64,000 nt of DNA from Zygnema cylindricum (lineage: Eukaryota; Streptophyta; Zygnematophyceae; Zygnematales; Zygnemataceae), in the NCBI GenBank assembly GCA_037447655.1, contig JBBHKE010001521.1, forward strand, positions 1 to 64,000, read 5' to 3'. How positions within the stretch are numbered: the first letter of the stretch is position 1; each line of letters begins with the position of its first letter. The notes under the pieces were generated by a model that was not told where the DNA came from, made no database searches, and saw only the letters and a list, made by a program, of their open reading frames with translations. The position numbers and the translations under genes were made by a program. Shown piece after piece: positions 13,279 to 60,254 of the stretch.

Positions 13279-13300
13279 GCTGTCGAGTCACAAGGGATAG

Positions 13301-14208: not shown

Positions 14209-14215
14209 TATAAAT
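14209..14215 (+). promoter_or_regulatory. Probable TATA box of the Copia-2 5' LTR
   Basis: TATAAAT about 350 bases before the Gag ATG, placed as expected for the U3/R border. Confidence 0.6.
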
Positions 14216-14564
14216 GGCAAACTTTGGGAAGCCATAACTATCAATTTACTTGACCATTTTCAGTGATTCTTTTTGCTGCGGACTCAGGGGAGTCCAGGCT
14301 ACACAGGGGTGTAGTCGGTCAGAGTTTTTGTCTGCCAGGGTGGCTGCATTTCTAAGGGAAAGTCAAAGTGGGTGAATGTGTCCAAATCTCATATTCTAAC
14401 TTTGCATTCTGTGGTGGAACTGAGCACACAGAACGTGTTATTTCACAGGGTTGAATCTATATTGGGGTTCTGACTGTCAAGGGGTCAGTCACTTGGGTTT
14501 ATATTAACTTGGAGTCGGCACTATCTAGATTAGCTTCTTTTGGATCTGCATACTCTGAGGGCCA

Positions 14565-16427: not shown

Positions 16428-16433
16428 GGGGAG

Positions 16434-27803: not shown

Positions 27804-28523
27804 ATGTAGAGAAAAATGTGGTTTTAAAGAGAAACTGAAATTAGACTACAAAATAAAGAGAGTGTTGAAATCAATAGATTTAGGGAAAGTATTTTCTAGG
27901 TCCTAATTAGTTGAGTTAGCTAAAAGAAAAAGCACAAGCAACCTGCCTCGACCTTCTCTCTCTAGCCCTCATACTTGTTGTAGTCACTGAAGGAGAGAGA
28001 GGGCGGTGGAGCCATGGCTGCCTTAGCTCCTTAGGCAGCGCTAAAGAGTGACCTAAGTCACTCTCAACCAAAAAGGTTGAGTCTTGCGGGACTCAAACCT
28101 CCGACCAGCAGGGCCAGGCGTAGCCGTCAGTCTTTACCAGTGTGTCGTAGTAGTCCGTTAGGATACATAGAGTGTGATAGCTATTTAAACAATAACAAGA
28201 GCATTAAATTGATTAACAGAATTACTATTAGACATTATAGAAACTAGTTGGATTTTTATAGTGCGTACGAAACAAATGTACCATATATTTGTTTTGAACG
28301 GCGAGCATTAAAAGCTGGTTTAGATCAAACGACCCGCATCATCGCCGAGATCCTAGATTAGCCGCCCTGGCGGTTTTCGGACGTAACATGACTTGGCGAC
28401 ACGTGGCAAAATATATTGGGGAAGCAAGAATCTCGGGGAGGATGAGGACGAGTCCAAAGGAGACATGCGTCCACTCCATGGACTTGTCGTACACAAGCCT
28501 TACATAAAGTACATCGGCCTTAG

Positions 28524-29856
28524 TGTTGTTTTTGAAGATTTACTTTCGTGCGTACGTGAAATTTGGTGCGCAAGCGACGTTTCGTGCGTATATGTTTACC
28601 TAATGTACTGTGGAGGTTTGAACAAATTTGCAGTTCGGGGGAGTAAGTGTACAAGTTGAATTAATGCGACGTAATGAACAAATTGAGTGGTACAGAATGC
28701 GCTGGGAAATGGTCGGGGGATCGCTAAGCGATCCGATATGAAATGTTTGAAATATTTGAATATGTACGTTGACGGTACGGAGCGTCTTATTTGGATTGCT
28801 GTACTTTATTTGCGACAGGCGGCATTTGTCACAAATGACGCGTACTTTTTATGTGACATGTCGCATTTAGTACAAATGACACGGTTACGGTACGGTTAGA
28901 TTTGGATAACATGACGTCGCTTCGTCAAGTGGATTTTGAGACCACGCGGCGCGACATCAACGGTGCCGAGCAAGAGGTACGGACGGTGGATATAGGCCGT
29001 CGTTGTTTTTCAAGTAGTGGAGACGCAAAATCGCGTCATTCACACAGCATATTTTGGACGTCCCGGATTGTTTGACGAAAATTGAGGAGTTTCGTTGGGT
29101 GACTTAGCATGACTCAACATACAATTTGGTGTCGGTGTAAATATTTGGAGTAACATTCTTTTGTCTTTTGCATCATTATAAATTAGTGTTGATTATGATG
29201 TTTATATTTAAGTGATCAATTAGGGTTTTGATAGTTTTATTTGTGTGTGTAGAATATCATACTTGTAGACAAGTGTACTCTTACGATTGCTTGACTCTCA
29301 GGTGTACGCTTACGATTAGTTTACTCTTACTAAAAGGTTATTATGCGTAAATAGGATTTAGTGACAGTAACGTAATTTACGTTGGTTATTTTGACACTTA
29401 GTGATTATTTGACAGCTCACAAGTGTATATATAGGAATGAGCTTGGTTAGAAATTAATAATCAATGCTGGTTATTAAAGTGGGGACCAAAGATGTAGTAT
29501 TTTAGGGTTGTCGATTAGGTCATGCACTTTGAATGATATAATGATTATTTGATTATACTTTGATTATACTTTTGTTTATGTGTAATGCATTTGTTTGTTA
29601 TTATTTATGTTATTTTATATATGTTTGATATGCATTGTTTATGCATTTGTCTTAGGGTTTGCTTATATTGATTATTCCATCAAACCTTAGATGTTGTCCT
29701 AAGGTTTGTTTATGTTGATTTTTCCATCAAACATTAGTTGTTGTATGTCAAATGGAGGATGCATTTCAAATGATTGTTCATTGGCCTAGCTTCGCTTAGC
29801 TTTTTACATGATAGTTTAGGTGGCTTCTACGGTCTATTTTAGACAAAAGAACAACA
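28524..29856. repeat. Solo LTR S-i (TGTTG...CAACA family)
   Basis: 1333 bp, begins TGTTGTTTTTG and ends GAACAACA, with a perfect 5-bp target duplication cttag (28519-28523, 29857-29861). The first about 580 bases match S-ii and S-iii in inverse orientation; the rest is AT-rich and different. Contains GGATCGCTAAGCGATCC (28718-28734). No coding domain. Confidence 0.75.
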
Positions 29857-29932
29857 CTTAGTACCTTTCTGTAATGTACATTCTTGTGATTGGTTCGTAA
29901 ATCAATATATAGGGGTTGTGAGAGGGGAATAG

Positions 29933-30992
29933 TGTTGGTTTGAAGCATTTTCAGCCATGAATGTAGCCTCAGAAGCACCACAGACTACCGCAATGCAGCC
30001 TACATTGATTCCACTCTGAATTCTACAGAATTACCAAAACAAGCTGAAACTTCACAAAAAGATATTTTCTAGGCCACTTAGTATTTCCACAAATTTTCAT
30101 CTAAATATACTAACCAGAATTCCAGCATTACCCAGTCAAAGTTTCGGAAAAACAGCCTGCCAGAACTTTGATAAAACCGACCAACTTCACAATAAAGCCC
30201 TTAGCAAATCAGACGCACAATGGGTCTGCAAATCTGCCACAATGTTTCCAATACAAGGTGGAACACACATGCAAAATATTAGATAATTTTGCCGATAGAA
30301 CTGAGAGCAATTCTCAGATGAAATTCCCAAAAAAGAGCAGAAAAACAGTTTCTGTCCAAAAATTCCCCATGTAATAAGTCCTACAAATATACACTACAGC
30401 TTACTACTAACTGTACGGAGGCATACCAGCCGTACGTAATAAATCAACTACCTCAATTTAAGTGAGTGTACATGAGATCTACACTAATAATTAATACAAA
30501 GGTCAAAACATTGCTAAATATCTACAAGTCTTACGAATTCCGTCAAAGGAATCTAGACCGTCCAAAATAAATATCATGTGATGGACGCGATTTTGCGTCC
30601 CTCACCAAACTGACGGCGCCGCGGTCCGTAGCTCTTCTTTGGCACCCTTGATGTCATGAAGCATAATCACCAAAATCCACTTGGCGAAATGACATCACTC
30701 CATCCAAATTAGTCCGTACCGGCGGCGTACTTCTCCAAAAACATTCCAGATCGGATCGCTTCGCGATCCGCCGTACATTTACATATTCCTTCCCTTTCCT
30801 TACGTTTTGTTTGCGCCACTCAAATAATAGCGTACATCCCAAAACAATTAGTACCATTACTCCCCCAATTCCCAAAACAATTCGAACCTCCACATTAAAT
30901 CAAGATAGCATTAGAGTAGCGTACTGTACCCACGAAACATTGTGTACGCACGAAATGACACGCACGCACGAAACTAACTTTTCAAACTAACA
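29933..30992. repeat. Solo LTR S-ii
   Basis: 1060 bp, begins TGTTGGTTTG and ends AAACTAACA. Target duplication aatag/tatag (29928-29932, 30993-30997) has one mismatch. Homologous to S-iii along its length. Contains CGGATCGCTTCGCGATCCG (30752-30770). Confidence 0.75.
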
Positions 30993-34012: not shown

Positions 34013-34116
34013 CACATGACAAGGGAATAAACAAAAAGGAAAATCAAGGCAAAACCGACGAAAATACGAAAGGATGGCAAGGAAATCGAAAATACCCAAA
34101 AAAGCAAAACCCAGCT

Positions 34117-34435
34117 GTCGAGCGTGCCTGAGTAACGTAAGGGAAGGTGTCGAGCGTGCCCGAGAATCCCAAGGGAAGGGCCCACAGCCCGGAGTGGTTG
34201 GCCTCAGATTCCTGCAAAGAACCCCCCCAAATGCGAAAGGCTTCCCAGAATAATGATCATGCCCACTGCTGACCCCCCATCCTTCCCATAGATATGCATG
34301 CAAAGATAGGAGAGACACCTGAACCGGGAGTAAGAGTAAGTGCATGGGAAGGCGAAAAGACCTCCCATCCCCTTTCCTTTCCTATTTGGCCGGGGAAACG
34401 GATTTGGGTTCTCGGTAATCGGGTCGGTGCTCCAA
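34117..34435 (-). repeat. Extra copy of the Gypsy-2 3' UTR block outside its 3' LTR
   Basis: Matches 35616-35908 (shared GTCGAGCGTGCCCGAGAATC, ATAGATATGCATGCAAAGAT, TTCTCGGTAATCGGG), with about 25 extra bases at its left end. Lying on both sides of the LTR, it suggests a remnant of a tandem or recombined element. Positions 34013-34116 are unassigned. Confidence 0.7.
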
Positions 34436-35615
34436 TTTACTTATCCACAGGAAGTCGATAGCATTTGTTCCCTCAAAACCCACTGTTTCGATACAAGGAA
34501 GTTGCAGTTTTACTCCGGGAAGCTCACGCCAAAGCAAAAGAAACTACAAGTGAATACACAAATGCACTACCACGTTGACATATAGAAATAAATAGGAATG
34601 GTTGTTTCAGATTTAACAATATCACCTTGACCACAGAAATAAAATAAAAGATGGAAGATATAAAAGATGGCGAAGCAAGCTTAACATACCCTGGCAATTT
34701 ACGATGACAAAGAGAAAAAGGCGAACTCTCTCCCGATGGTAGTGTAAATAGGTATGGTACTCCTTCAACCCTCGGTGTCCGCAACTCGGAACCGACCAGA
34801 CTCTTCTCAGTTTCAGGCAACGTAAAATCCAAAAATCACCCAAAAGGACGATAGTGCCAACTACCAGCCCGAACTATGATTCCCACAATGGACAAATTCA
34901 AAACAAAGATGGCAATAGAGTGAAACAAAACAAAGATTTTTCCAAAAGAAAGTTTGTTGGATTTTCTGAGGGTTTTCATAGGAGACAGTACTAAAAAGCA
35001 ACATGTCTCTTTCGGCCCCAAGTGCCTTATACAGCAAAAGCTTGTCCAGTTTTAGGTCCAAAAGTCAAACCACCGCTATTAGCCAATGAGCGGCAAGCAA
35101 CAGCAACCGAACTGACATAAGACAAAATAAAGTGTATTACACTTAGGACAAAAAGTTAGACCTCTCACTACGGCTAGATCCGCGGCCTTAAGTTATTATT
35201 TTTTCCACAGTTTTAAGACAAAGTATGAAAAGGACACGGAAGTGCCAAGCTTTGACTTAATGTAATAAATGGACCACTAGTTAGCTGAACCTGAACTGAA
35301 TTGCTACAGATTGCTAACAGCATAATCTATATTGGAGCCCGGAAGTCTACGTGGCAATCCATAATGTACCCCCCACTAGGGCTGGTGGAAGCTAGTGGTA
35401 TGTAACTGAACTGCGATCTTTCAGACGGTAGAACTTTGTTGTCCGGCTTTGTCGTTAGGCGCAAAATAAATTGCGTCTTGTTCCGTAGAGGAAATACTAT
35501 AATCCTTCCGGCTGGTTGTGCTCACTTCTCCGTAATCTGAGAACAGTAAGGGTCAAATGGGTACGGAAGTCCTCGGTAAAATAAAAGGGTGCCTGAAAAG
35601 CACTCGAGCTTGACA
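34436..35615 (-). repeat. Gypsy-2 3' LTR
   Basis: 1180 bp, aligns throughout to 46924-48104 at high identity. In element orientation it begins TGTCAAGCTCGAG; the terminal CA expected at the other end reads AA. Confidence 0.85.
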
Positions 35616-35921: not shown

Positions 35922-37130
35922 TCAGCCTGGACTAAGAAAAAGAAATAAGTACCCGCCCAATTCACAGTTCCGGCAGAACAATGGACTAGGGGATGGAGAG
36001 TGTGATTCCCACGAGGAGGGGAGACAAGCTAGATGCCAACACTGACAGCACTGATTGTAGACCAAGATGTTGCGCTGCAAGGAGGACAGGTTGCATAATG
36101 AAGAACAGGAAGGAGGATCGGCAAAGTAAGTCAAGTGGAAAGTGGGTTCGTCTTCCAATCCTCGGAGATGGCAAGGGGCCACATTGATCTGATTCTCTTT
36201 AATTCTTGACCATCTTTCCCCTCCAAATTAAAAACTCCCTTGTTTAAGACTTCCACCACTTTCAAAATCACCCGCCCGGCAGAAATGTCAAGCGTGTCCT
36301 TTTTCTGTTGCATTCGATATACAAAGTCTCCTGGCATAAATCGTCGTTGTCTAGGCACATAATCCCCGTTCCGGCGCTAGGAATACCACAATTGATCCCG
36401 GTGTTGTGCGGCCTGTAAATTCCCCATGACGAGAGGCATCTCTCGGTGGAAGATTTTGGCACGATCGGTGATCAGTTTTTTGACAGTCCCCTTGTTAAAC
36501 ATTTCCAAAGGACCACAGCTCGGGCCGAGACAGCCCCGGGCAGAATGGAATGTGGTCCGAATAAAATGAAGTAAGGGCTATAGGAGTGGAGGGAAGCCTG
36601 TCTGGTGAATCTGTATCCCATGGCAATCCAAGGCACCCTTTTGTTCATTCTCCCAAGTCCTCTTCCACGGCATATTTCCGTAGTGACCGCTTCACTGTCT
36701 ATACGCACCTTTCGGCCAAACCGTCGGCTTGAGGGTGGTCGCGACAGGTAAGTCGATGGCCGATGAGGCATTTCCCTAAAAGATTTGTAAATTCTCCAGC
36801 GAATTCCGATCCTTAGTCTGTCATAACCTCTTCTGGCGCTCCAAATTGTGACATGACCCACTGCAAGAAAGCGTCGGCGATGGACTTGGACTCATTTCGG
36901 GGCAGTATCACAAGCTCTATCCATTTTGAGAAATGTTCAATCATGACCAGGACGAAACGATTCCCACGTATGCTGGTCATAAGAGGTCCCAAAAGATCCA
37001 GAGACCACGGATAAAACATCCCCCGGATAGGAAGAGAATGCAGCTCAGTCCCGCCCTTTTTGTCAAAGGAGGCCTTAACTCGATTGCAGGAAGAGCAAGT
37101 CTGTACAATTCGGTTAACTTGGGCCCACAA
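35922..37130 (-). pseudogene. Gypsy-2 integrase with C-terminal PHD-like finger (broken)
   Basis: Integrase inserts the cDNA. The zinc-binding part (Cys-Ser-Ser-Cys-Asn-Arg-Val-Lys) and the first catalytic Asp (Ser-Leu-Asp-Leu-Leu-Gly-Pro) lie in 36813-37130. The core continues to about 36472 through frame breaks, including a His-x-Gln-Ala-Asp-Gly-Leu-Ala-Glu motif near 36715-36745. At 36131-36358 is a GPY/F-like region (Pro-Gly-Asp-Phe-Val-Tyr). At 35964-36107 a Cys/His cluster follows the PHD spacing: a Cys pair (x3 instead of x2), then x2-Cys-x4-His-x2-Cys-Leu-Pro, then Cys-x2-Cys. The third ligand position is Tyr rather than Cys. PHD fingers bind histone H3 tails, so a targeting role like that of chromodomains is inferred. 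Confidence 0.72.
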
Positions 37131-37649
37131 CCTGTGCCACCAATAAGAGCCTGTAACTAGGGAAGTGGTCCGCTTCTGCCCGAAGTGCCCACATTGCTTG
37201 TGGAGATTAGTAATCAGAGTTTCTTGATCTCATGGAGGAGGAACGACTTTCCTCGTACCGTCTGACCATTTCCGGAGGAGAACACCTCGGTCCCATTCAT
37301 ACGCCGCCATCCGGGTCTGAACTCGAGACAATTGAACTCCAGCCAAATGGGGAAGAGGCGATCCCTGTTGGATAGATTTGAGAGCCTCGGAGTCGTGCCA
37401 GATGTCTTTCCATCAGGCTCTTATGGGTGCATGCCCCTCAACACTTGCTGCAAAAGTGGACAATGCCCCCCCAGATGGAGGAAGCCAAATTAAGGCGGAG
37501 GATGCTCGAATGAGTCCCAAACTGATTTCCGGGTCTTCGTCATGCCGAGCCCCGGTGGAATCCAGTGTGGAAGGATCAGGATTTCGGCTAAGTCCGTCGG
37601 CATTCCCATGGATTTCCCCTGCCCGGTGAACAATGCTGAAATCATATTC

Positions 37650-39090
37650 CTACAGGATAAGCACCCATCTGGCGAGTTTGCCGGTCAACTTACTATTCTC
37701 CATAATCCATTTCAGGGGTTGGTGGTTAGTGATCAGTGTGAAATGGACCCCGTACAAATAAGGCTTGAAATGCTGGATAGCCCACACAGCTGCCAAAAGC
37801 TCCCCATGGTAACTGCTATAATTCCCCTCAGCTCGGTTTTTGCTCCGGCTGGCGTAAGCCACCACATACTCGGCTCCGGCGTCGTCAACTTGAGCCAAAA
37901 CCGCTCCTAATCCAAACCCACTCCAATCAGTGTAAAGAAGGAAAGGTCTTTGGTGATCAGGCATCCATAGCACTCGGTGCTGCTTCAGTGCATCTTTCAA
38001 AAACAGGAAAGCGATTTGCTATTCCTCGGCCCACACCCATTCTTGATCTTTCCGCAATAGCTTATTTAGGGGCTGGGCATGACTACTGAACTCAGGAATA
38101 AACATGCGATGGTAGTTGGCCAGGCCGGAAAGGTGCGCAAGGCGGAAATGTCCTGCGGGGGAGGAAGAGCGTCAAGGGCTGCAACCTTAACCATATGGGG
38201 ACCCACTGTCCCGGGAGTCACCTCATGTCCGAGGTAAACAATTTTCTGCACCCCAAAAATACCCTTACCCGGATGACATTTCTAAACCGCTGCTTAAAGG
38301 GTCGGAGAACGATCTGGATATGCTCCAGGTGTTCTTCAAAGGTCTTGGAGAATATTATGACATCGTCGATGTAGCACCGGGTACAATCGATTCCTCGGAG
38401 CGCTTTGTCCTTGGCCCGTTGGAACTTGGCTGGTGCATTCTTGATTCCGAAGGGCATATAAATCCACTCATAAAGTCTGGATCCGGCCCAGAATGTCATT
38501 CTCTACGGTGTTTTCGTTCCATGGCAATCTGGTGGAATCCATTCTTCATATCCAGTGTGGAGAAGATGGTGGCTCCCGCAAGAGAGTCGAAAATCTCTTC
38601 CGGGGTTGGCATTGGATTACGGTCAGAAATGGTGGTCGTGTTTAGCATGCGGTAATCCCCACACATTCAAAAATCTACAATTTTCCTAGATGAATCCTTC
38701 TTAGGAGGGAGACTTGTGAGGGAAGCAAACCCATGGAGTCATGTGCTTTCTTGAACCAACCCAGCGTCTACCAAAGTTTGGACCTTTGCGGTGATAAACT
38801 CCTTCTCCTTAAAGTTGAGAGATACTGTTTCTGCCAAACAGTTGCGGTTTCGTCGATCAAGTCAATACGAAAGGGGGTTCCTTTGTATATTCCGACATCT
38901 GTTTCTGACCAGGAGAAAACCTGATTGTTGTTGGCCAAGAGTTCCGTTAGCTGTTCTTTCTGCTGAGGGTCCAGCTGCTCCCTTAGAGTCCAGTCAATCT
39001 TTCCCGGCTCAACTGCGGCCCAGGCTTCCGGTGGTCTCCCCCAGAGATTGATGTCGAATTCTAGCCAAACTTGTGGATCCGCCTCTACAC
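37650..39090 (-). pseudogene. Gypsy-2 reverse transcriptase and RNase H (broken)
   Basis: RT runs from the Asp-Pro-Gln-Gln-Lys-Glu-Gln-Leu region (about 38970) to about 38066. The Tyr-Met-Pro-Phe-Gly-Ile-Lys-Asn-Ala-Pro motif lies near 38450 and the catalytic Tyr-Ile-Asp-Asp near 38362-38373. Several stops fall between 38770 and 38500. RNase H is in frame at 37650-38000 with Tyr-Thr-Asp-Trp-Ser-Gly, Glu-Leu-Leu-Ala-Ala-Val and Thr-Asn-His-Gln-Pro-Leu. The order RT, RNase H, integrase is that of gypsy. Confidence 0.87.
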
Positions 39091-39269
39091 CTCCGTATAA
39101 TACTTTACCGCTGACAACTTCCGCTAAGTTGTCCCTTTTTGAACTACCGTTCCCCACCACTAAAGGAACTCCTGGGTGTAGAATTTTTCTCCTCTGTCTC
39201 CCCCCCTCAAGCTGCAAAGTGGCTTGCATGGATAACAATTTGGGAGCTTGAAGGTAATTTCTGCGAAAA

Positions 39270-40265
39270 TTTGGAGAATGGAGACTGGAATATGCAAGAG
39301 CGTGTTTTGTAACCCATGTAATGGCATTCAAATCCATGCTTTGCACGATTAAGCTGCACCTTTCAGGACTAAAATACCTGGTGCGACCGTGGTTCCCGGA
39401 TGGAATCCCATGGCTTGTTCTCGTTCCAAACTCGTAGGTGTCGTTCAAATTCTGGCCTTGCTGTCAAAATTCATCCCAGCTGCCCTATTTCTGAAGGCGT
39501 GACTGTGAGGAAAAGAGACCAACGTGGGGGAGGGCTCGGCGAGGAGATCCGGGTGTGTTCCATCGGAAGAAAGGAGGAAGTTCCAGTTTAGTTACAGGTG
39601 TGGCTATTCTCCTTTCCCTAAGTATTTGCTATACTGAAGTCTGAGGTTTGGGGGTCTGTTTCTCCAACAGTTGCCGAAGGACCGGAAGCGGGATCATATT
39701 GGTCCAATATGCCCGGAGTCTGTGTGCTCGAGATCCCATCTAAGCAGCGTCAAAAACCAAAGGAGCTCCCAAAGTCTGGGTTACTTGTTTCCAGCTATCT
39801 GCCACCTGTTTTCGTTTATCATCCCCCGGATGGACGTTCTCTAGGGTGTACCCCACTGGTGTGTCCTGGAGCTGCTGAATCCACGATATTAATGTAATCA
39901 TTTGGTAGAAGGTGCTACTTCGCGGTCTTGATGCCCTTTTCCTTGTCTTGCGAGGGAGTATCCCTGACAAGGCTATCCCGCCACAACCAGATCTATTCTG
40001 CCCAGATTTGCTAAATGGGGTGTCATAATGTTATCCACGTTCTGTGGAATCCTTCGGTGAGCTTTGGAAATGGAAGACATTGGAAGTTGCTGAGGATATA
40101 AACGGTGCAATTGATGGAGTCGGTGTTCGCTGACAGCTCGTGCCTCCGGTGAAATTTCCACTGCTGTATATGACTCCACCTGATATCCTGCTTTCAAAAC
40201 GGCTTTCAAGTCTGAACTAATTCCTGAAAATAAAGAAATAATCCGAAGCCCGGTGTTAGCGACTG
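39270..40265 (-). pseudogene. Cytosine-5 DNA methyltransferase domain of Gypsy-2 (broken)
   Basis: This domain would transfer a methyl group from S-adenosylmethionine to cytosine C5. Motifs appear in family order on the minus strand. Motif I is Ile-Ser-Leu-Phe-Ser-Gly-Ile near 40240, followed by Ala-Val-Glu-Ile-Ser (motif II). Motif IV reads Leu-Val-Val-Ala-Gly, stop, Pro-Cys-Gln-Gly, with the catalytic Cys at 39967-39969 and the stop (39973-39975) in place of the usual residue, probably Trp. A frameshift follows. Motif VI is Leu-Glu-Asn-Val near 39832-39843; motif VIII is Arg-Ala-His-Arg-Leu-Arg-Ala-Tyr-Trp-Thr-Asn near 39690-39720. A probable final motif (Phe-Ser-Pro-Glu-Arg ... Met) is near 39340-39365. 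It looks closer to DNMT3/DRM than DNMT1, which is uncertain. It sits between protease and RT of the same element. Confidence 0.85.
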
Positions 40266-40411
40266 TCAATGAAACCGCATGTCGATTGAAGTTCTCGTTA
40301 CCAGTCTTGGTGGGGAAAACATTTGACCGGGTTGTCGAATCTCTTTTCTGTGATAATAAGGCCGAGAAAGCCTAATCTACTCCACGCCAAAGTTTTGCCA
40401 CCTGCAATAAT

Positions 40412-40920
40412 CTATTTATGTATTCCCCTTCCCACCGCTTGGAAATCGGGAATTGCTAGATGTCTCCTGCGATATCTGTTGAACTGTCGAACAACTCTGC
40501 CGGAGAGGATGTAGAATACACTGGGTAACAGCCAAACGCAGGAACATTGGTCTTCCCTCGGTTCCATAAATCCAAAGGAACCACAACTTTGGTTCTTTCG
40601 GGATTTTTGGGGTACCGAACTGTACAATGCTCTTTCCAAACACTTAAACTCATATTCATCCGGGTCCAAGTAGCCATTCCCAACAGGATTTCAAACTAAT
40701 TCCCCTCTACCACTAAGAAAGGAAGTTCAATTTTCACCTTCTGTCCAACATTATCAGAGAATTCAATGTTCATGGCTTTGATGATTCTATGGACTGGCTG
40801 ATTGCCGCTGCTTACTATGCTTAAGCAGATGTTACTTGGGCAGATTTGGGGCCTAAGTTCTTCAAGCATTTTCTGCAATGGGGAGGTGGTAATAAGGTTA
40901 GGAAGTGCTCCGGTGTCGAC
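40412..40920 (-). pseudogene. Gypsy-2 aspartic protease, split by solo LTR S-iii
   Basis: The active-site Asp-Thr-Gly-Ala lies directly after the insertion point (about 40905-40920), in the context Val-Val-Asp-Thr-Gly-Ala-Leu-Pro-Asn-Leu-Ile. A hydrophobic flap and Ile-Leu-Leu-Gly-Met-Ala follow near 40675-40690, after a stop. Then comes a 40412-40669 segment with no clear domain leading toward the methyltransferase. The codons just upstream of the active site are on the far side of S-iii (42078 onward). Confidence 0.75.
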
Positions 40921-40925
40921 CACAG

Positions 40926-42072
40926 TGTTGTCCATAGCCATTTCTAGCCATGGATTCACCCTAGGAAGCACCACAGACTACCCTAAAAACAGCGTACTTT
41001 GGATACACACAGAATTCAACAAAATTAACAAAACAAGCTGAAACTACATTTACAGATATTATCTAGGATATAAAATGACCTCACAAAGTTTCAGACAAAT
41101 ATAATAAAGAGATTGATCACATCATCTAGTCAAAGTTGCAGAAAAACAGTTTGCCAGAACTTTGATCAGACAGACTAACTTCACAATGAAGTAAAACACA
41201 GACCAGGCACACAATAGACCTGAAAATCTGTGATAATATTAAAAATATAAATAGGAACAAACATGCAGAATTTCAGATAATTCCGCTAGCAGATCTGAGA
41301 GTAATCCTCAGATAAAATTACCAAAATAACCATAAACAGTTTTTGGTCCAAAAAGGTCCTATGTCCTAAAATGACGAAGTCCTACAAATATATACAAGAG
41401 CTTACTGCTGAATGTACGGAGGCATATCAGCGGTACGCTATCTACCAGCTACCTCTATTAATGTAGGTATACCTGAATACTTCAAGGTATGTCAAAGTGA
41501 GTAAATCTACACTAATAATTAATTCACAAAAAGACACATCAATGTTCAACCAAAAATTTACATCGACGCTTCCGTAAAATCCGCGTACTGAGTATCAACT
41601 TGATTAGTCACTTGAGGACGAAACCACGTCATGAACCGACATCACATACGTACGGTCCACTTGATACCACATTATCAAAATACAATCTTTTGGAAATATC
41701 GGCGGACGCCATCCGCCCTCCAAATGTACCATGGACCACTTGCCGAAATTAAACCGTACCGAACTTGCGTCCTTTGCAATAAATACGCCTCTCGCAAATA
41801 AAGTACACTTGTCCAAATAAGACGCTTCGTACCGGCGGCGTACATATTCAACATTTCGTAAATTTCACATCGGATCGCTTCGCGATCCGCCGTCCATTTG
41901 TAAACGTATTCCGAGCCACTCAATTAATCCCTTTAACTTACTCCCCCAATCCACAAATCCATTCGAACCTCCATTTGTACCACCACAATATTTCCGGTAA
42001 TAATCTACGCACGAACCGTCGCGTGCGCACAAAATGTGGCGTAAGTACGAAACTAACATTTCAAAAACAACA
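40926..42072. repeat. Solo LTR S-iii inside the Gypsy-2 protease
   Basis: 1147 bp, begins TGTTGTCCATAGCC and ends AAAAACAACA, with perfect target duplication cacag (40921-40925, 42073-42077). Homologous to S-ii along its length and to half of S-i. Contains CGGATCGCTTCGCGATCCG (41871-41889). It interrupts the protease one codon before its Val-Asp-Thr-Gly site. Confidence 0.8.
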
Positions 42073-42077
42073 CACAG

Positions 42078-45000
42078 CGTCCTGGTACCCGCCGTACCCG
42101 TTGAGTTTAAAATTGCCTGTTCGGTTCAGAATGAGAGCCACAAACAAGGTTTTGTAGTCCCTATCCACCATAGGGGTCTTCGGGTCGGAAGACAAATGTA
42201 CCGCCAGGGGTGGTGTTTCCCTATCTACTTTGTCCTTTCTGGAATGTATCTCTTCTCCCAACGCTTGAATAAGGATTTCTTCTAGCACATTATGGAAGGA
42301 GGTAAGGGTCTTGACATGGGTTAGGGCATACGGCATAAGGTGCCTCACTAACATGACAGCATGTTTGGAGGAAAAGAGTGGGGCTCTCAAGGATGAAGCC
42401 GGCGAATCTGGTTTCCGATCCTGTTCGTTCCCCTCTTTGTCATCACTTTCAGAACCAGAATCGGGCATTGGTGGAGTTTTGGGTGCCTCGTCGTCTGGAC
42501 GTTTGGCCATGAACCGCTCAAACCAATCATGAGTGCTCTGTTTGTCCTCTTCCAGTGATTTCTTCTCCTGCGGTAGTTTCTCGCTCTTGTAATTTTCGAA
42601 ACCGGGAGGCAGTTTAGGCTTAGGAGGAAGAGGAGGAGGTTGAGTGGGCTTGATCCCAAGACGTGTGTCACTGTTCAGCACTACTGCCCAGGGCGTGAAA
42701 GATAAAGGCCCGGTGGCCTTCCGGTTGTGGTCCTTCCTGCTCATTGTCTGCCTGTCTCTCCTCTGATCCAAGGTTGAGGAGCGAAGTTGTTTACGATTAT
42801 CTCCTACTCCCACATTCCACGCTCTGTGCCGGAAGCTGCTTGCATGGTGGGCATTTGGGGGTTCCAAATCCCAGCCAATTAAATCATCGTCATTAGCACC
42901 CGCTGTGCTTTGCAGTTCAAGCTCCGCTAGCTTCTGTAGTAACTCCTGTTTCTGTCTTTGGAGTCGTTGCTCTGCTGTCAGAGGAGCAGTCCGAGAAGAC
43001 AATCCCAAACAAAGTGCAGCCAATTCCGCTGCCATGGCGGCCATCTGGTGACTCTGTTGTTGGATTATAATCTCCGGTGTAAGTCTGGCTGGAGAAACCG
43101 ATGCTCTTTCCGGAGTCTTGGGTATAGGCAGCACGGGGCGCCCCCAAGGGTAAAGGAGTTGTAGGGGAAGAGGGTTAACGGCAGTTTCTCCTCCTCCCGT
43201 GAACAGAGCGAATTGCATCATTTCCTTTGGGATTCCATTCTTCCGGAAACATTGCCCCTCCTTGTGCCCCATAAAACCACAGGCCTCGCACTTGTGACCC
43301 TCGGTGGTATACTTGCTCCGGATCTCGTTGGAGATCTGGGCGTCGTCAAACTTTGGCAGTTTGATTTGCCGCAGTTGAGATTGGGACATTTTAGAAGTTT
43401 CGCTCCGGGGAGTGGGGCGGTAATTGTCCTTTGTGACCGGTGTTCTCTCCCCCCCCACAGCTCCTTTGAGCCGTTCTTCATGCTGCTTCTAGCTCCTTTC
43501 TGAACGCTCTACATCCCATTCTTTCAGCTTGAGGGCTAGCTCCGATTTGAGTTTCCTGTTGCAGCGTTTCCATCCATGTCCCGCTTTTTGACAATTTAGG
43601 CAATTGTACAGAATTACCCGATCGTTTGCCCCCATTGCAGGTTCGGACCCGCTGTCCACCGCTTGCTTCCCTTTAATCTTCCGCAAAGCTTGAAGTTCCG
43701 CTTGTTTTTCCCCACTTAAGGAAGTTTCCCTAGCGAATCCTACAAAATTCGCCCTGGCTTTGCCGGTTACGGCCTTCTCTCTAGCCTCACTGTGAACGAA
43801 GTGGTCGTACAACTTCATTGCCACCAGTGAGATGTCCTGGGCAGAGGGATTGATGTCTTGGATTGCTTGTCCTGCAATCCAGTTATCCAAGGCAGTGTGC
43901 CCTGTCAGTCCAAAGGAATGACGGACAGCAATGAAATAATTTGTGGCCATTGTAGGGAGATCAATATTCGACAGCTTAGTTTTCTGGCACAGGCTCGATA
44001 GACGGTAAAAGAGAGTCTGGGTGTCTCGCTCTTCAAGCATCGGAATTCTGTGAATTCCTTGGTGGCAGATTCGTTCCTCTCGGTGTAGGGAGTCGCCAGA
44101 TATTCAGAAAGGTGGTGCAAGGGTGGGATTGGCCACCATGCGTGTTGCTGCCCGAGCTGCCTGAATAGCTTGCAGCTGGTTAACATAGGCCCTTCCTTGG
44201 GCCTGCAGTTTCATATTATCGGTGAATGTGGCTGTCACAGGGGTGGCCGCCGCTGCAGCCAAGTCAGCCTCCGCTTGAAAAACGGCCGCATCAAGAGTGG
44301 GATCATATATCTTGATGCTAGGAGCCTTCAAAAGAGGTTGACGCTCCTTATAGTCTGCCAACGCCCCTCTTGAGAGGTAGTTGACCATCATGGGAAAAAG
44401 GGTCGTCTCGAAGTCATCGACACTGCTCCTCCCTTGTAGTTATTGATTTCTGATTGGGTGAACGATTTCCATAACAACTCGAAATCTGAGAAAGCGATCA
44501 CCGAGCTGTCCCCTGTAAATATTCGAATATTTCCCCATTTCTTTCTCTTCTTCCGCCGATTGGGTTAACTAAGAAAAGGAAAGGTTGGTGGGAGTGACGA
44601 ACTGTCCCGGCGAAATGACTCCTTTGTCCTCTTCTTCAGGACCGGAGCCACCTTCTCCTCCGGTAGGAGGTGCTGCTCTGCGAGGTGTGGATACTCCTCC
44701 AGCAAAGGAAGTACCAACCCCTGAAAGGATGGCTGGAGGAAGGGTATTCCTCTCGCGGAGAATTCCTGGCCCCCTGGGTGCAAAGGGTATCTGCGTCTGA
44801 AGACTTGTTTGGCCTGGTGTAGTAGAAGGAAGGGCCCACCCCCCTTCGTCCACTCCTAGATATCCACGGGAATACCTTTTGTCCTTAAGAACTGTCTCCT
44901 TTGAAGGGATGTGGATCCGAGGTTTGTTCAAAGGTTGATCTCTGGGTAGGGATGGAGAAGGAGACGACGTAGGCCAGTTCTGAGAAGAAGGAGTTCGTCT

Positions 45001-46875
45001 CCGGAAAGGGGTCTGTTTTCGGGGCTGTCTTCGAGAGGTTTCAGGAGGAGGAGTTCCGAAACTGGAGGATGGGGAACACCGGTGAGGAGGAGAGTAGACG
45101 TCTGACTTGTAGGGTAGATTCAACGGACCTGGTGACCGATGGTCTCCTCCAGTAAGGGAAACAAAAGATGAGGGAAACGAGATGGGATTGTCCTAGGGTT
45201 TTTCTGCCGCATCCTAGGAGTGAGAGGTAGGAGGATGAGGAGGGAAAGGAGGAGGATCAGAGGACAGTCTGGGTGGAGGCGAAGGAGGTGAAGACGGTCT
45301 CAGGGGTGTTTGAATTCTTTCGTCCGGTCGTAACTCCACTAAGGCCTCAAGAGCTGCAGAAACCTCCACCGAAACAAAAGTAGGCTCTTCTCGTGGAGCC
45401 GCTGCGATTTCAGAAGGTGAATCTGCACCCAAACCCCCAATATTAGGTCTTGTGTCTGCCCCCTCTTCCCGCTGAAGAGGAGGTTCTTGACCAGTCTCCG
45501 AGGAGGGAGCCTGGGGTTGATCTCCGGACGGGGGTTCCGCTACTGGTGTTGGAGGAATCTGCCCACTGAGGATCCCAGTTGACCTCCGCCGAGCTTCCCG
45601 TATGAGGTTCAATTCCTGCTCCCACAACTTTCTCCGTTCTTCCTCCAAAGCCTCCCAATCTACTGTGACCGGTCTAGCCCCCGCCGTAGCCTGGCCCTGA
45701 GATTTCAAAATTTCCACTAGTTCCTTAGCCCTTTCCACTACTCCGGTCAGATCAGCTATCCCCGCTCCTAGAATTTCTGGATCTGTAGGCCTGGCTCTCC
45801 ACAATCCCTCGGACAACTCTTCTGGTTCTGCTTCCGAAACCTTTGGGTCAGTGTGTTCGGGTCGCCAGAACCCTCCGTCAGGGCGAACACGATGTGCCAT
45901 AGGGGATGATTTCTCGCTGGAGACTGGCGGCGGCGTTGGGGAAGATTCTTCCTTGGGAAGAGGTGCAAATCTACCCTTACTATCCCTGTGGTCAAACTTC
46001 TTCCCCCTCATCGGCTCTGGAAGCCCTCTCTTGCTGCCACTTGCTCCCCAACGAGACCTCGAAGCAGGGCGCACCTGGAACGGTTGGCTTGCTGCAGTGT
46101 CTAGGGAAGAAGATGGAGGAGGGCGAGAAGGAGGAGCCCTCCTGGGCCTTTCCTGCAAGGACTGTGAGGAACCACTCTCTGAAGAGCTGCTTAGAATCTC
46201 CACCACCCCTCCCACTGGTTTAACCACCCGGGGTCGATCCGACCGAGCCACTCTCTGCACCAACTCCTATTTCACCTTCAGTTCATGAAAATCATGAAGA
46301 GGAAGGAGTTCCTTTTTACCAGGGCGGCTGGGATCCATCAAAACCGCAGGGTCAATCTGCATTTCAGCCCTGGGAATCTTTGATCTAGTATGAAGCCCGA
46401 CCTCCGGAAGAGGACCCAAAAGGGGCTCGCGTTGAGCTTGCCTCTTTGGCTTGGCCCGGGGTGACACTCGGTTTCTTTCTTGAGCCTGTGCACTGAACTC
46501 CTTTCTTTCCTGGGCAAAGGTTCTGGAGGCCTCCGCCAAGGAGGGAAAATCTTTAGGAGTGAGGCTAGGAGGAGATGGGGGCGAAGTTTGCGGTTTGGGC
46601 GGTTTTGGAGGAGTCTAAACTCTAACAGGCTCAGGCATCATCCCTTGGAGAAACCGCTCTATGTTTGCAGACGAGGTGAAAGGGACGGATTCTTCGGGAA
46701 CCTGTGACTCTTCTTCTGGTGCCACCGCTTCTTGATTCGCCCGTTCTTCCGGCCTGGCACCGGAGAGATTCTTATCTTGAGCTTCGCCTCCCCCCATGAT
46801 GACAAAGGTCTTGAAAGAAGAAGAAACGAAAGTAAACAAAACTCGCTTACGTCGAGAGAGAGATTCTAAAGTCAA
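42078..46875 (-). pseudogene. Gypsy-2 gag region, unusually long, two zinc knuckles
   Basis: Open pieces: 46615-46875, 46267-46539, 45214-46263 (349 codons, Pro/Ser/Glu-rich), 44569-45123, 44104-44391 (Ala-rich), 43489-44040 and 42078-43458. The capsid-like part appears to lie in 43489-44391. A CCHC knuckle Cys-Leu-Asn-Cys-x4-His-x4-Cys is at about 43570-43611 and a second, Cys-Glu-Ala-Cys-x4-His-x4-Cys, at about 43252-43293. Downstream to 42078 is a long Pro-rich and acidic stretch reaching the protease. Total span is about 4.8 kb against 1-1.5 kb in most gypsy elements. Frames are broken, and whether one or two proteins were encoded is not clear. Confidence 0.7.
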
Positions 46876-46923: not shown

Positions 46924-48104
46924 TGTACTTATTCACGGGAAGTCTATAGCATTTGTTCCCTCAAAACCCACTTTTTTGATACAAGGAAGTGGCAGTTTTA
47001 CTCCGGGGAGTTCACGCCAAAGCAAAAGAAACTACAAGCGAATACACAAATGCACTACCACGTGGACATATAGAAATAAATAGGAATGGTTGTTTCTGAT
47101 TTAGCAATATCACCTTGACCACAGAAATAGAATATAAGATGGAAGATGATATAAAAGATGGCGAAGCAAGCTTAACATACCCCGACAGTTTACGATGACA
47201 AAGAGAAAAAGGCGAACTCTCTCCCGATGGTAGTGTAAATAGGTATGGTACTCCTTCAACCCTCGGTGTCCGCATCTCGGAACCGACCAGACTCTTCTCA
47301 GTTTCAGGCAACGTAAAATCCAAAAATCACCCAAAAGGACGATAGTGGCAACTACTAGCCCGAACTATGATTCCCACAATGGACAGATCCAAAACAAAGA
47401 TGGCAATAGAGTGAAACAAAACAAAGATTTTTCCAAAAGAAAGTTTGTTGGATTTTCTGAGGGTTTTCACATGAGACGGTACTGAAAAGCAACCTGTCTT
47501 CTTCGGCCCCAAGTGCCTTATACAGCAAAAGCTTGTCCAGTTTTAGGTCCAAAAGTCAAACCACCGCTATTAGCCAGTGAGCGGCAAGCAACAGCAACCG
47601 AACTGACATAAGACAAAATAAAGTGTACTACACTTAGGACAAAAGGTTAGACCTCTCACTACGGCTAGATCCGCGGCCGGAAGTTATTATTTGTTCCACA
47701 GTTTTAAGACAAAGTATGAAAAGGACACGGAAGTGCCAAGCTGTGACTTAATGTAATAAATGGACCACTGGTCAGCTGAACCTGAATTGAATTGCTACAG
47801 GCAGCTAACACCATAATCTAGATTACAGCCCGGAAGTCTACGTGGCAATCCACAATGTACCCCCCACTAGGGTTGGTGGAAGCTAGTGATATGTAACTGA
47901 ACTGCGATCTTTCAGACGGTAGAACTTTGTCGTCCGGCCTCCGTTAGGCACGAAATAAAGTGCGTCTTGTTCCGTAGAGGAAATACTATAATCCTTCCGG
48001 CTGGTTGTGCTCACTTCTCCGTAATCTGAGAACAGTAAGGGTCGGAAGGGTACGGAAGTCCTCGGTAATATAAAAGGGTGTCTAAAAAGCACTCGAGCTT
48101 GACA
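46924..48104 (-). repeat. Gypsy-2 5' LTR
   Basis: Starts TGTCAAGCTCGAG (minus strand) and ends AAGTACA, flanked at 48105 by Copia-6 RNase H sequence. The following bases on the minus strand (GTACTGAAAAGCC) are the primer-site position, but I cannot match them to a tRNA. Confidence 0.85.
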
Positions 48105-56000: not shown

Positions 56001-56938
56001 TCAATGGTGCTATCTGGGTTCAACTTTAATTTGAACACCCACTTACACCCGATTGGTTTTCGGTTAGGTGGGCAATCTACCAGCTCCCAAGTATCGGCTG
56101 CCATGATTGAGGCCATCTCTTCATTAATGGCTGTCTTCCACGGGTTTCTTTCTTGGCAATTCATCGCTTCTCCATAAGTCTGAGGGTCATCAGGATGAGA
56201 GAGTTTTGTTACCTTGTTATTAGCCTTTTTTTCTTGCAACCTTTTGCTATTTCTCCTTCCCCCTTCAAAATCTGCGGCCATAGTAGAAGGTTGTCGTGGG
56301 TTCTTTCGAACAATCACGGCTTCTCCCCTGTCCGTTGATTCCGAATAATTTTCCATCACGTCTTGCGCTTCCGCTTGAGTTGTCACTAGAGTTTCCACGG
56401 CCGAGTCCTTCTCGGTCTGATTTGTACCTGCAAGAATGTCATCTTCTTTGAAACTTGGATAGTTAGGGAGCTCAAAGTCATCGGAATTTTCTGACTCAAA
56501 TCTGATTTTTTCTGACTTTGTATACTTGAAAGGATCCACAGCCTTTCTTTCATCTATAGCTACTAGGTGCTTCACTAAGATTTTATATTCCCTTTTTAGG
56601 TCATAAACTCTGTACCCTTTTACATCCTCATCATATCTAATAAGTACCCTGGTTTTCCTTTAGGATCTAGCTTCTAATTAGACCGATATGTATCTAGGCT
56701 CAACACTTGACTGCCGAAAACCTTTTTTAGAGATATGTCTGGTTTTTGGTCAGTCCATCTCTCGTAAGGTGTTTGGTCTTTTACCGCTGACGTAAGAACT
56801 CTATTTTTGAGGTAATTAGCATAGTTCATTGCTTCGGCCCAAAACCTTTTTCCTGTCTTCTTATCCGACAACATTCTTCTACCACTATCACTTAGTGCCC
56901 TATTTAATCTTTCATCTACCCCATTTTATTTCGGGTTT
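55799..56938 (-). pseudogene. Copia-7 RT N-terminus, linker and integrase end (broken)
   Basis: A 258-codon open part (55799-56575) holds the acidic linker and RT from Trp-Glu-Leu-Val-Asp-Cys-Pro through Arg-Tyr-Lys-Ala-Trp-Leu-Val-Ala-Lys to His-Gln-Val-Asp. The integrase C-terminal part is read at 56674-56874 (Lys-Arg-Phe-Trp-Ala-Glu-Ala-Met-Asn), and the sequence enters the gap within the integrase core. Confidence 0.87.
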
Positions 56939-56948
56939 NNNNNNNNNN
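56939..56948. other. Assembly gap (10 N)
   Basis: Ten N exactly at the end of recognisable Copia-7 sequence and the start of CT-rich DNA. True distance and adjacency are unknown. Confidence 0.99.
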
Positions 56949-57700
56949 CCCCCCTCCATCTCCAGCTCTCTCGCCCTCTCCCTCTCCCCCTCCCTCTCCC
57001 TCACACCCTGTATCTCCTCACCCACCTCCTCTCCCTCGCCCAGTCCCACTTTTTCTCACTCTCTCTCTTTCTCTCCCTCTCCCTCACCTTTAACCTCCCC
57101 GTCTCCCTATACCTCGCGCTCAACATCTACCTCTCTGTTGTGTGTCTCCTCCACCTCTACCTCCCCCCCACCCCCCCTCTCCCATTCTCTCCCTTTTCAC
57201 CCGCCTCTCGCCCTTTCTCCTTCTCTCTCATCTTCCTATCACCCTCTCCTTTTCTCACGCTCTCACTCCCTTTTTGGACCCCTTTCCCTATCACTCTCCC
57301 AATATGCCCTATCCCCCTCTCCTCTTTCTCTATCCCTATCACTCTCCCTCTCCATACCTATCTCTTTCCTTCTCCGTCTCACTCTTCCTCCCGCTCACCC
57401 TCGCCCTCTCCCCCTCTCGCCCACACCCTCTCACTCCCTCTCACTCTCCACCTCTCTTGCTACCCGTCCCTCCCACTCTTCCCTCACAGACTCCTCTCCC
57501 TCTCCCTCTTCCTCTTCCTCTTCCTCTCTACCTCTACAAATCCCTCTCCCTCCCTCCTTTCTTTTTCCTCTACCTCACCCCATCTATCCCTTTTTTCCTC
57601 TCCTCATTTACCCCTCTCTCCCTCCACCTCTCAGCCTCTACCTCTTTCCTCCCCATCCACCTCCCTCTCACCCCCCATCTTCAAAGAAAAAACAAAAGAA
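56949..57700. repeat. CT-rich low-complexity tract
   Basis: About 750 bases of almost pure C and T on this strand, with CCCTCTCC, CTCTCTC and CCTCTTCC units and no fixed period. Long frames through it are compositional artefacts. A polypyrimidine tract next to a gap may be sequencing or assembly noise. Confidence 0.85.
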
Positions 57701-59218
57701 AATGTGACAGCGGAATCACACAAAAAAAATTACGCAATCGGCCAAAAACAAATTTATAAAAAGAATGGCCGAAGCATTTTTATAAAAGGCTTTTCTCCTT
57801 TGCACTCTTCCATCTTTTCACTCTACTGATCCGACTTATAATTCAAAAAAGATAAATACTGCAACTAAAAGATTTTACTAAAGTAGTTGTCACTTTGACG
57901 TGCCGTGCCGTGCACGATAGAAAAACATAGGCGGCACTCTCCGGAAGAAGGCACGCGGGAAGAAGAAAGCACGCAAAAAAGATGGCAGACGCGCTTTATC
58001 CTTCGATATAAGAAAAGAAGAAACATAAAGTTTCGTGCACCCTGCGCCACGAAACTTCAAACAATTCCTTTCGTGTGCCGTGCGCGCACGAAACACCAAA
58101 CGTTTGATTTGAATAACGCATAGTTGTTCAAATCGTGCTAGTTTTTATTTTTTCACTATTTTTACTTATAATTCGTGACTTTTGAAAAAATAGCAACAAA
58201 ATGTTGAGTACATTCTATTCGGTAAACTGAACAGAAATTTACGGAAACGATTTTTTATGGAAAATGTTAAAATCAAGGTTGTAAATTTGTAATCGGTCGT
58301 CGCGGTCTGTCGCGCGGCCAGGTAGGTTGGCGTTACGTGAAGATATTGGTCCAGATTTGTTTGGATTCATTAAGTCGAGTTGTACGGTTATGTAGTACTT
58401 TGGTCTCGCGAAGATTTAGGGTATGTCCCCATGTACTTATAACTTAGCGAACTTACTTTGCATTTTAGCGCGGATCTGGCGGTCCCGCTTTTCAAGTGTC
58501 CCTATGTGTGAGGGTATGTCCCCATGTACTTGTAACTTAGCAAACTTACTTTGTATTTTAGCGCGGATCCGACGGACCCGGTTTTCAAGTGTCCCTATGT
58601 CTGTAAGGACGAATTAGCAAATTACGCTTGTGACGATTGTATACGTCGACAATACCTGTGACAGTTGTCAACGTCTACAATCTGTGGTCGCACGTTATTT
58701 TTTGGAACTGATTTGTGACGTCGCATGTCTCATTGTGACATTGTAGACATACCGCATTCTAGCCTGGCAGTTTCACGGTTGAAGAAGATGCGATTTGCCC
58801 TTCGCGTCGCCTGTCCACTCAAGGTGAAATGGCATCGAAATTTGAAGACTCCAGCAAATAAAAAATCCGTACTGAACGAAAAACGACAAAATCAAACAAA
58901 TTGTGTACTTTTTTTTGTCTTATTATAACGCAAACGGACAGAACATAGCAAACTATATACTTTTCTTTATCCTTGGAAATCGTAGGATTTTTTTCGAAAT
59001 TTAAGGCACGTGCGAAAAAATGTTCCTATTTGTCAATCGAAAAAACCTAATTTTAAAACACATCGCGCATGTGTTATAAACAAAGGTTTGAAGATGACGT
59101 TTTTTTGTCGTAGAAGTGGGTCGAAAAGCACAAGAAGACAAATTTTCGTACATCCTAAGTTCAAGGATGACGCAAATTGTACTCTACAAATTTGCGATTC
59201 CTTCGTACGGTTGCAACT
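57701..59218. other. Gene-poor stretch
   Basis: No gene supported. It contains GTTTCGTGC/GCACGAAAC inverted motifs near 58032-58097, a segment (58209-58237) inverted relative to 20645-20675, and a 93-bp tandem duplication (58418-58603). Confidence 0.45.
58418..58603. repeat. 93-bp tandem duplication
   Basis: Units 58418-58510 and 58511-58603 both start AGGGTATGTCCCCATGTACT and end CAAGTGTCCCTATG plus three or four bases, with a handful of substitutions. Confidence 0.85.
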
Positions 59219-60254
59219 TGTTGAAATCTATAGATTTCTATAGTATTTTCTAGGTTTAAATATGTTTTAATAAAAGGAAAAAAAGGACGGACAGCCTGCC
59301 TCCACCTCGCTCTCTAGCTCCCATACTTGTTGTAGTCACTGAAGGTAAGAGAGAGAGGTTGATCCATGGCTGCCTTTAGTTCAACAGACAGCTATTTTTA
59401 GTAGGTTACTAAAAATTATACTTGACGGACCAGAGATTTGATCCCGGTACCTACGGTTCGTCAAGTTGACCGGTAGCGGTCAGCTTTATCCTAATAGACT
59501 AGGACCAATGCTAAGTGCTATGGTATGTGATAGATATATATTTAGTTAGGAAGAATTAAATCCATTAAACTAGAACTGTGTACGACGCACATAGATTCAG
59601 TTTTATATAGTACGTCGTACGACGCTAATTCAAAACGGATACCGCGCATTTTATTTCGACATCGGAACAAATATCGCGCAAATATTTATTACGGCTAAGA
59701 TTGCGTTTCGCATAAAATCCAACGGCGCACATCATCGCCGAAATCCCGGAGTGGTCACTTTGGCGTTTTGTGACGTGGCATAACCTGGAGCCACGTGGAG
59801 AGATGACATTCGGTCATAGAAATTCCGAGAAACGTACGGACGAGTGAAAAGCGGACACGCGTCCACTTAATAGCCTTGTCGTACATAGGCCGTACAAAAG
59901 GTACATCGGCAGTAGTACTTTTGTGTACGATACAGTAATCTGATTGGTCCGTACTTCAGTAGATAGGAGTTATTAGAGAGAATCAGGACTTAGAAAATTT
60001 TGGTAGGTGGTCACCTCTCCCTTTGAGAGTTTGTACAAATTGGCATTTTTACTGCCTCATAACTTATCGCCTGGTTGGCCTTTTTCAGTGATTCTTTTTT
60101 CTACGGACTCAGGGGAGTCCAGGCTACACAGGGGTGCAGTCAAATTGTCAGTTTGCCTTCTTGGGCAGTAGTGGTTGTGGCTTGAAGTGGGTTAGTTAAA
60201 TACTATCTAGAGGCTTCCTGTATTCTGTAGTCCAATGGAGGACACAGGATTGCA
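59219..60254 (+). repeat. Copia-5 5' LTR
   Basis: 1036 bp, TGTTGAAATC ... GGATTGCA. Holds the conserved block with a near-match TCCATGGCT (about 59363), a tRNA-like module, a GTAC hairpin (about 59878-59920), a TATA-like TACAAAT (about 60026) and the Gag ATG at 60235. The outer flank is caact; the second target copy is outside the window. Confidence 0.87.
59421..59508 (-). other. tRNA-like module in the Copia-5 LTR
   Basis: On the minus strand CTTGACG and CGTCAAG form a 7-bp acceptor-like stem around a T-arm-like hairpin with GGGATCAAATC. Upstream, TGACCG and CGGTCA can pair around CTAC like a D-arm, and AGGATAAAGC is A-box-like. The anticodon arm is absent. Confidence 0.5.

Follow-up and report, generated by a model that had tools for sequence, protein, structure and literature searches.

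What is a DNA methyltransferase doing inside a retrotransposon, and does it belong there at all? The question is raised by one element in the 64,000-nucleotide stretch of DNA analysed here (the window), in which a first-pass annotation had read a cytosine-5 methyltransferase, with its motifs in family order and on the strand of gag and pol, between the protease (PR) and reverse transcriptase (RT) of a Ty3/gypsy element. A frame-aware search of the conceptual translation of positions 39300-40260 against Pfam profile PF00145, in which X stood for each stop or change of frame, scored above the curated cut-off of 22 bits (E 5.4e-8, 33.1 bits). The motifs, numbered I, II, IV, VI and VIII, follow one another in the conventional order on the minus strand: LRIISLFSGIS (motif I, from ~40248), AVEIS (motif II region), Pro-Cys-Gln (motif IV, 39972-39964), Glu-Asn-Val (motif VI, 39841-39833), and RLRAYWTN (motif VIII, 39721-39698), after which comes a LEREQAMGF...SMDLNAITW block and, near 39300, the end of the domain. 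A stop codon (39975-39973) stands directly before Pro-Cys, and there are further stops and frame changes. The profile match and motifs confirm a cytosine-5 methyltransferase carried in a Ty3/gypsy-type pol, and the interruptions confirm that this copy is dead.

The frame-joined reading, together with relatives, was needed because single pieces of the window are not significant: positions 39973-40371 alone reach only E 0.085 against DNMT3C, and positions 39740-40030 alone have no methyltransferase match. A 132-aa piece of the window domain is 65%-67% identical to two uninterrupted relatives (E 5e-51 and 2e-49). A single-sequence structure prediction of 39973-40371 had a pLDDT of 44.6 and was not used.

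To which class does the domain belong? When solved structures were ranked by their best chain against the window domain (with X), DNMT3C (1e-7), DNMT3A (1.2e-6), and DNMT3B (2.1e-6) came first, followed by the bacterial enzyme 3g7u (0.053), 4onj (0.11), which we take to be tobacco DRM, and DNMT2 (1.8); DNMT1 was absent from the matches up to E 10. Uninterrupted relatives ranked DNMT3A best (5.9e-13 in family 1 and 1.7e-10 in family 3), and the lower family 1 matches were HhaI (2.6e-5), DRM2 (3.9e-4), and DNMT2 (1.7), with no DNMT1 up to E 10. A DRM identity was rejected, as the motif order is conventional and not rearranged. The nearest known class, judged by ranking against solved structures only, is DNMT3. 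Animal DNMT3 catalytic domains share the conventional motif order and are the best solved relatives, but the domain described here is encoded in a retrotransposon and does not have the Pro-Cys-Asn of DNMT3A at motif IV; it has Pro-Cys-Gln (families 1 and 2, with one Pro-Cys-His) or Glu-Cys-Gln (family 3). We therefore call it DNMT3-like.

The element lies on the minus strand in the order gag, PR, methyltransferase, RT, RNase H, integrase, and PHD finger (Table 1). The domain does sit between protease and RT, with the protease core upstream and RT, RNase H, and integrase downstream. The order PR-RT-RNase H-DDE integrase is that of Ty3/gypsy, although PR scores only below the Pfam cut-off: the PR open reading frame (ORF) of relative L033 matches PF13650 at 1.7e-4 (22.7 bits; cut-off 24.3), and the window's protease piece alone has no Pfam match. 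The integrase matches Integrase_H2C2 at 9.4e-14 and rve at 2.7e-4, the latter below its cut-off. The PHD piece alone is weak (PF00628, E 1, 9.9 bits) and has no match among solved structures in the PDB. In the gag region, zinc-knuckle-like motifs are visible by eye, the pieces scanned gave no significant Pfam match, and the last part (~42447-42070) is the counterpart of the N-terminal portion of the protease ORF in relatives.

Table 1. Parts of the methyltransferase-carrying element and their positions in the window
Feature	Position	Strand	State or evidence
Repeat A1 (element's left end; first bases TGTCAAGCTCGAG)	46926..48104	-	94.8% identity to A2, K2P 0.054
Gag region, several broken frames	42061..46614	-	50-79% identity to gag/PR ORFs of L032, L033
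Foreign stretch, ~1.1 kb, splits the protease frame	40939..42069	.	Flanking pieces align to one ORF of relatives
Aspartic protease core (VVDTGA)	40696..40938	-	70-72.5% to PR ORFs of L033, L032
DNMT3-like cytosine-5 DNA methyltransferase domain	39300..40260	-	Broken by stops and frame changes; PF00145 and DNMT3C matches
Reverse transcriptase, broken	38218..39200	-	RVT_1 1.2e-11 on 38218-38502; 83-84% to family 1 relatives
RNase H	37650..38018	-	RT_RNaseH 5.7e-34
DDE integrase (H2C2 zinc finger, rve core) and C-terminal part	36131..37229	-	84-86% to family 1 relatives
Degenerate PHD finger, C end of pol	35922..36227	-	62-64% identity to C ends of L033, L032
Repeat B1, right after purine-rich tract AAGAGGGGAGGAAA	35618..35911	-	
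Repeat A2	34438..35615	-	
Repeat B2, last 32 bases tandemly duplicated (34116-34179)	34116..34441	-	92.5% to B1

The element had also been placed inside long terminal repeats (LTRs). Repeats do flank the coding region, but they are split direct repeats in the layout A1, coding, B1-A2-B2 (A-coding-B-A-B) and not plain LTRs; B1 and B2 differ by a K2P distance of 0.079. A tyrosine-recombinase (DIRS) reading was rejected: none of the 27 larger distinct ORF pieces scanned in the window, and none of the pieces from relatives, matched PF00589, and an rve integrase was found in its place. The element is nested in a copia element. No target-site duplication was established: copia sequence runs cleanly up to the element on the left, but on the right ~150 unassigned bases separate B2 from the copia match. 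A search for a plant-type initiator-tRNA primer site stayed at chance level, and the window holds no tRNA and no Rfam family. Part of the foreign stretch that splits the protease frame is 73% similar to 29946-30475; more broadly, 28500-30800 and 40939-42073 are related stretches, 72%-77% alike.

If the domain were a local insertion, other copies of the family should lack it, as the first-pass annotation had itself proposed. We searched the window's own assembly (352,776,454 bases in 2689 contigs; the genome of Klebsormidium nitens has ~104 Mb, against 353 Mb here). Copy counts from these searches are lower bounds, and the match lists overlap. The methyltransferase DNA has at least 42 matches, the window included (40 scored of 534 candidates), and 39 other places match most or all of the query at 83%-89%; the 132-aa piece has at least 152 (150 scored of 1081 candidates). 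Among 40 scored RT copies (of 740 candidates), the window included, 38 carry a methyltransferase upstream, a count that includes two copies taken as carriers unread. It lies no more than 1.5 kb upstream in 24 of the 40, with a gap of 688-696 bases in 21 of these 24; in two it lies at ~7.15 kb, and 12 of the remaining 14 have it by the protein list. RT copies C2337 and C1341 have no methyltransferase in lists scoring 150 of 1081 and 40 of 534 candidates. With the domain upstream of RT in 38 of 40 scored copies, it is therefore no local insertion.

Several individual copies are worth recording. In C576 (32.8-41.9 kb) and C544 (139.9-148.9 kb), the gap between methyltransferase and RT is ~7.15 kb instead of the usual 0.69 kb, and the near-equal lengths suggest the same nested insert. 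At C1254, the RT (77506-78466) is 100% identical to window 37650-38610 (1716 of 1734 bits), whereas the adjacent methyltransferase (79157-80114) is 88% identical to window 39300-40260; here element copies seem to have recombined or been joined by template switching. L016 and L017 are 99.94% identical over 3411 bases and may represent separate insertions or a pair of haplotypes in the assembly. A scan of viral contigs found no methyltransferase relative among 14 pattern matches; one RNase H match there (L001) was dropped as spurious, its listed ORFs appearing phage-like by eye.

A PF00145 profile search of the same genome returned 123 scored matches of 782 candidates. Among the best 50 of these 123 (L002-L031 and L052-L071), 49 are retroelement copies that fall into three families: 25 in family 1 (the window being extra), 9 in family 2, and 15 in family 3 (L005, L006, L016, L017, L026, L030, L052-L054, L057-L060, L062, and L063). 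The one other match is a host exon, L008. The family 3 reference, L037 on C449, came from the remaining 73 of the 123 places. The first-pass annotation had proposed a search for intact copies, and several copies do have long open frames, up to 2395 aa. In these uninterrupted relatives the DNMT3-like domain is accompanied by protease, RT, RNase H, and DDE integrase, and without any joining they match PF00145 at 1.9e-12 (family 1), 3.8e-12 (family 2), and 1.5e-12 (family 3), or 46.7-48.0 bits, followed in order by RVT_1, RT_RNaseH, H2C2, and rve.

A PHD finger ends pol in all three relatives scanned to the pol end (L037, L036, and L033). Only L037, of family 3, passes the PF00628 cut-off of 24 bits (44.3 bits, 1.8e-11); L036 (family 2; 23.9 bits) and L033 (family 1; 21.9 bits) are just below it. 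The piece of L034 shows no PHD finger, and its frame runs beyond the stretch examined. The nearest fingers to that of L037 are those of PHF12 (4e-17), then lid (a KDM5) and KAT6A. The pieces scanned contain neither an ADD nor a PWWP domain.

Split A-coding-B-A-B repeats were seen in the window and in four of six relatives examined. At C1344, A is 100% identical over 931 bases and B 99.6% over 243 bases; at C895, A is 99.6% and 98.9% identical (in two parts) and B 99.1%; at C1374, A is 97.8% identical and a further B copy lies ~3.7 kb upstream; and at C449, ~0.56 kb lies between B1 and A2. C544 and C412 showed no split direct repeats. The identical repeats at C1344 suggest that the element was inserting until recently; the family is large and recently active in this genome.

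Has the domain been kept by selection? We compared copy pairs with at least 200 codons and at least eight changes. Within family 1, methyltransferase dN/dS is 0.12-0.53 except in L009/L014 and L010/L014 (1.0); within family 2, it is 0.11-0.34 except in L019/L031 (1.33, on ten changes); and the family 3 pair L026/L030 gives 0.37. Examples are L003/L007 (0.12), L007/L020 (0.13), and L022/L031 (0.14). In L032/L033, dN/dS is 0.027/0.185 for the methyltransferase and 0.020/0.172 for RT. When family 3 subfamilies, or whole families, are compared with each other, dS reaches or approaches saturation. Nonsynonymous changes fall below the neutral expectation with P values, which ignore relatedness and use approximate site counts, of 4e-12 to 3e-17 in four of five pairs tested and 0.0013 in the fifth. 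In most pairs, then, the domain is under purifying selection.

Families 1 and 2 are 58%-59% identical in the methyltransferase and 83%-86% in RT; families 1 and 3 are 41%-42% and 50%-54% identical, respectively. Because the two identities fall together and the domain has the same position in all families, the simplest reading of these pairwise comparisons is that it was captured once, before the three families split. Motif IV sets family 3 apart. Pro-Cys is kept in all 35 rows of families 1 and 2, the window included (34 PCQG and one PCHG), and family 3 has Glu-Cys-Gln-Gly in 15 of 15 rows, with the catalytic Cys retained. In an alignment of five members, two of them from family 3, the catalytic Cys, the Glu-Asn of motif VI, and the Arg of motif VIII are invariant. 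Activity of family 3 is doubtful because Glu replaces Pro in motif IV.

Two observations bear on the host. First, exon L008 matches solved structures 9mvy, 7ubu, and 4fsx at 3.4e-29 to 3.7e-29 and the next ones at 1.2e-12. All of its solved relatives bear the name DNMT1; we take 4fsx and its sister entries to be maize ZMET2, a chromomethylase, and the next-ranked matches are presumably animal DNMT1. L008 thus appears to be a chromomethylase-like host exon. Second, transitions between repeat copies are enriched at CHG and, less clearly, at CG sites. For the window's A and B repeats, they number 15/113 at CHG, 14/109 at CG, and 25/447 at CHH sites (P 0.0075 and 0.012); for eight repeat pairs, these included, 67/300, 35/244, and 105/1065 (CHG P 6e-8, CG P 0.05). 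A control with G two bases upstream gave 38/295 versus 134/1070 (P 0.84). Three copia copies show 145/607 at CHG, 65/244 at CG, and 433/2660 at CHH sites (P 1.6e-5 and 9e-5), with coding constraint as a caveat and one of the three almost without CHG excess (0.234 versus 0.224). The pattern looks like plant-type CG and CHG methylation and, taken with L008, makes a streptophyte host likely.

The precedent that the first-pass annotation had named is real. Methyltransferase-carrying elements were first reported in 2018, from a green alga and dinoflagellates, by de Mendoza and colleagues (PMC5890265), whose description includes a Dnmt3 in the Gypsy pol of the charophyte Klebsormidium nitens (KnitGypsy-Dnmt3) with a DIRS repeat structure and Ka/Ks <0.2. 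A 2025 paper places some DNMT3s within retrotransposons of streptophytes and dinoflagellates (PMC12344493), and methylase-encoding transposons are stated to be absent from land plants (PMC6338049), with which a land-plant host here would be at odds. As described in print, rather than by sequence comparison, KnitGypsy-Dnmt3 resembles the element here in its Gypsy pol with a Dnmt3 lacking the DRM rearrangement, its DIRS-like repeats, and its purifying selection, and the host is probably a streptophyte here too, though its larger genome makes another species probable. Features here that set it off from that description are at least three families, the PHD finger, and the Glu-Cys motif IV of family 3. 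The word PHD does not occur in the main text (figures aside) of PMC5890265, and literature titles and abstracts yielded no PHD finger with a Gypsy integrase. SymbioDIRS-Dnmt3 of Symbiodinium, as described there, shares Dnmt3 in pol and A-coding-B-A-B repeats but uses a tyrosine recombinase, whereas the elements here have a DDE integrase. Chromodomain/Tudor Gypsy elements of Ectocarpus (PMC12477816), in the published account, likewise bear a chromatin reader at the C end of pol; here a PHD finger takes that place, in a pol that encodes a DNA methyltransferase as well. This kind of element was thus already known, and the PHD reader and the Glu-Cys family may be new.

What, then, does the domain do? 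The element in the window is a dead Ty3/gypsy-type retrotransposon with split direct repeats and a captured DNMT3-like methyltransferase in its pol. We think it probable, with confidence somewhat above even, that the capture took place once, before the three families split, and that the enzyme methylates the element's own cDNA or insertion while the PHD finger steers integration. The placement of the domain in pol beside RT suggests that it would be packaged with RT and integrase and would add 5-methylcytosine to new double-stranded cDNA or to a fresh insertion; methylation of cDNA was proposed for DIRS elements by the 2018 authors (PMC5890265), who describe SymbioDIRS-Dnmt3 domains methylating CG in yeast. 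A PHD finger on the integrase suggests chromatin-guided insertion of the sort associated with the reader domains of Ectocarpus Gypsy elements (PMC12477816), in which the finger would direct the element towards certain chromatin. With methylation already in place, a copy could be taken for host DNA or enter silent chromatin, and the host would suffer less damage. Self-methylation that promotes silencing could also be a cost to the element. More tentatively, and as a possibility we would not put first, the families may form a writer-reader lineage, in which a de novo methyltransferase and a PHD finger on the integrase would let the element choose its chromatin and set its own epigenetic state; family 3 would keep a selected enzyme in which the Pro-to-Glu change alters chemistry, specificity, or regulation.

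Would the enzyme instead work chiefly in trans, with the DNA of the host or of rival elements as its target, altering host silencing to the element's benefit? The many copies (at least 152 matches, 150 of 1081 candidates scored, some in long uninterrupted frames) and the host-wide effects discussed for Symbiodinium in PMC5890265 speak for such action. We hold it to be unlikely nonetheless: a domain placed between PR and RT was probably packaged along with RT, and the window's repeats have decayed strongly at CHG, in the manner of plant-type host methylation, and not at CG alone. Somewhat less credible is a domain that has lost methylation and now serves the polyprotein as a DNA- or RNA-binding module; family 3 is where this would be most plausible. 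The uniform replacement of Pro by Glu in a motif IV otherwise set among much conserved sequence fits that idea, as does the outcome for KnitGypsy-Dnmt3, which gave no methylation in yeast, a result its authors call inconclusive (PMC5890265); the invariance of the catalytic Cys, of Glu in motif VI, and of Arg in motif VIII, which extends to the two family 3 members aligned, and the Pro-Cys kept throughout families 1 and 2 argue against it. We give very little weight to methylation of RNA, raised for LINE elements in PMC5890265, or to defence against DNA viruses, suggested in PMC6338049, both published as speculation only; the domain is closest to DNMT3, a family of DNA enzymes, with the RNA enzyme DNMT2 far off (E 1.8 and 1.7). 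Chance resemblance, or a methyltransferase fragment that happened to land in a single copy, draws on the non-significance of single window pieces and is refuted by the same domain in the same place in dozens of copies at a near-constant distance from RT.

Self-methylation of cDNA or of the new insertion thus remains our preferred reading, and it predicts that new insertions are methylated before host pathways act. The genome adds many young and old copies to a class for which literature searches yielded one primary report (PMC5890265), and makes it testable why a target of silencing carries a silencer; the PHD reader in the same polyprotein and the selected family with an altered catalytic motif offer natural comparisons.

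Other elements share the window. At 9309-13287 on the minus strand lies a different Ty3/gypsy element without a methyltransferase between PR (named by eye) and RT; its RT is 31%-39% identical to those of the methyltransferase families, and because only 390 bases separate the PR and RT frames, there is no room for the domain. A repeat pair (13389-14584 and 16432-17627), 99.7% identical, surrounds a 622-aa open frame; by eye, 13389-17627 is a very young element without evident pol. A long C/T-rich simple-repeat tract at 56820-57830 is interrupted by a few undetermined bases, which appear as four X in its translation. Finally, a copia-type polyprotein frame of 1263 aa (60211-63999) is open to the window's end, and relatives of it lie at 23.7-27.6, 48.1-51.9, and 54.9-56.9 kb.
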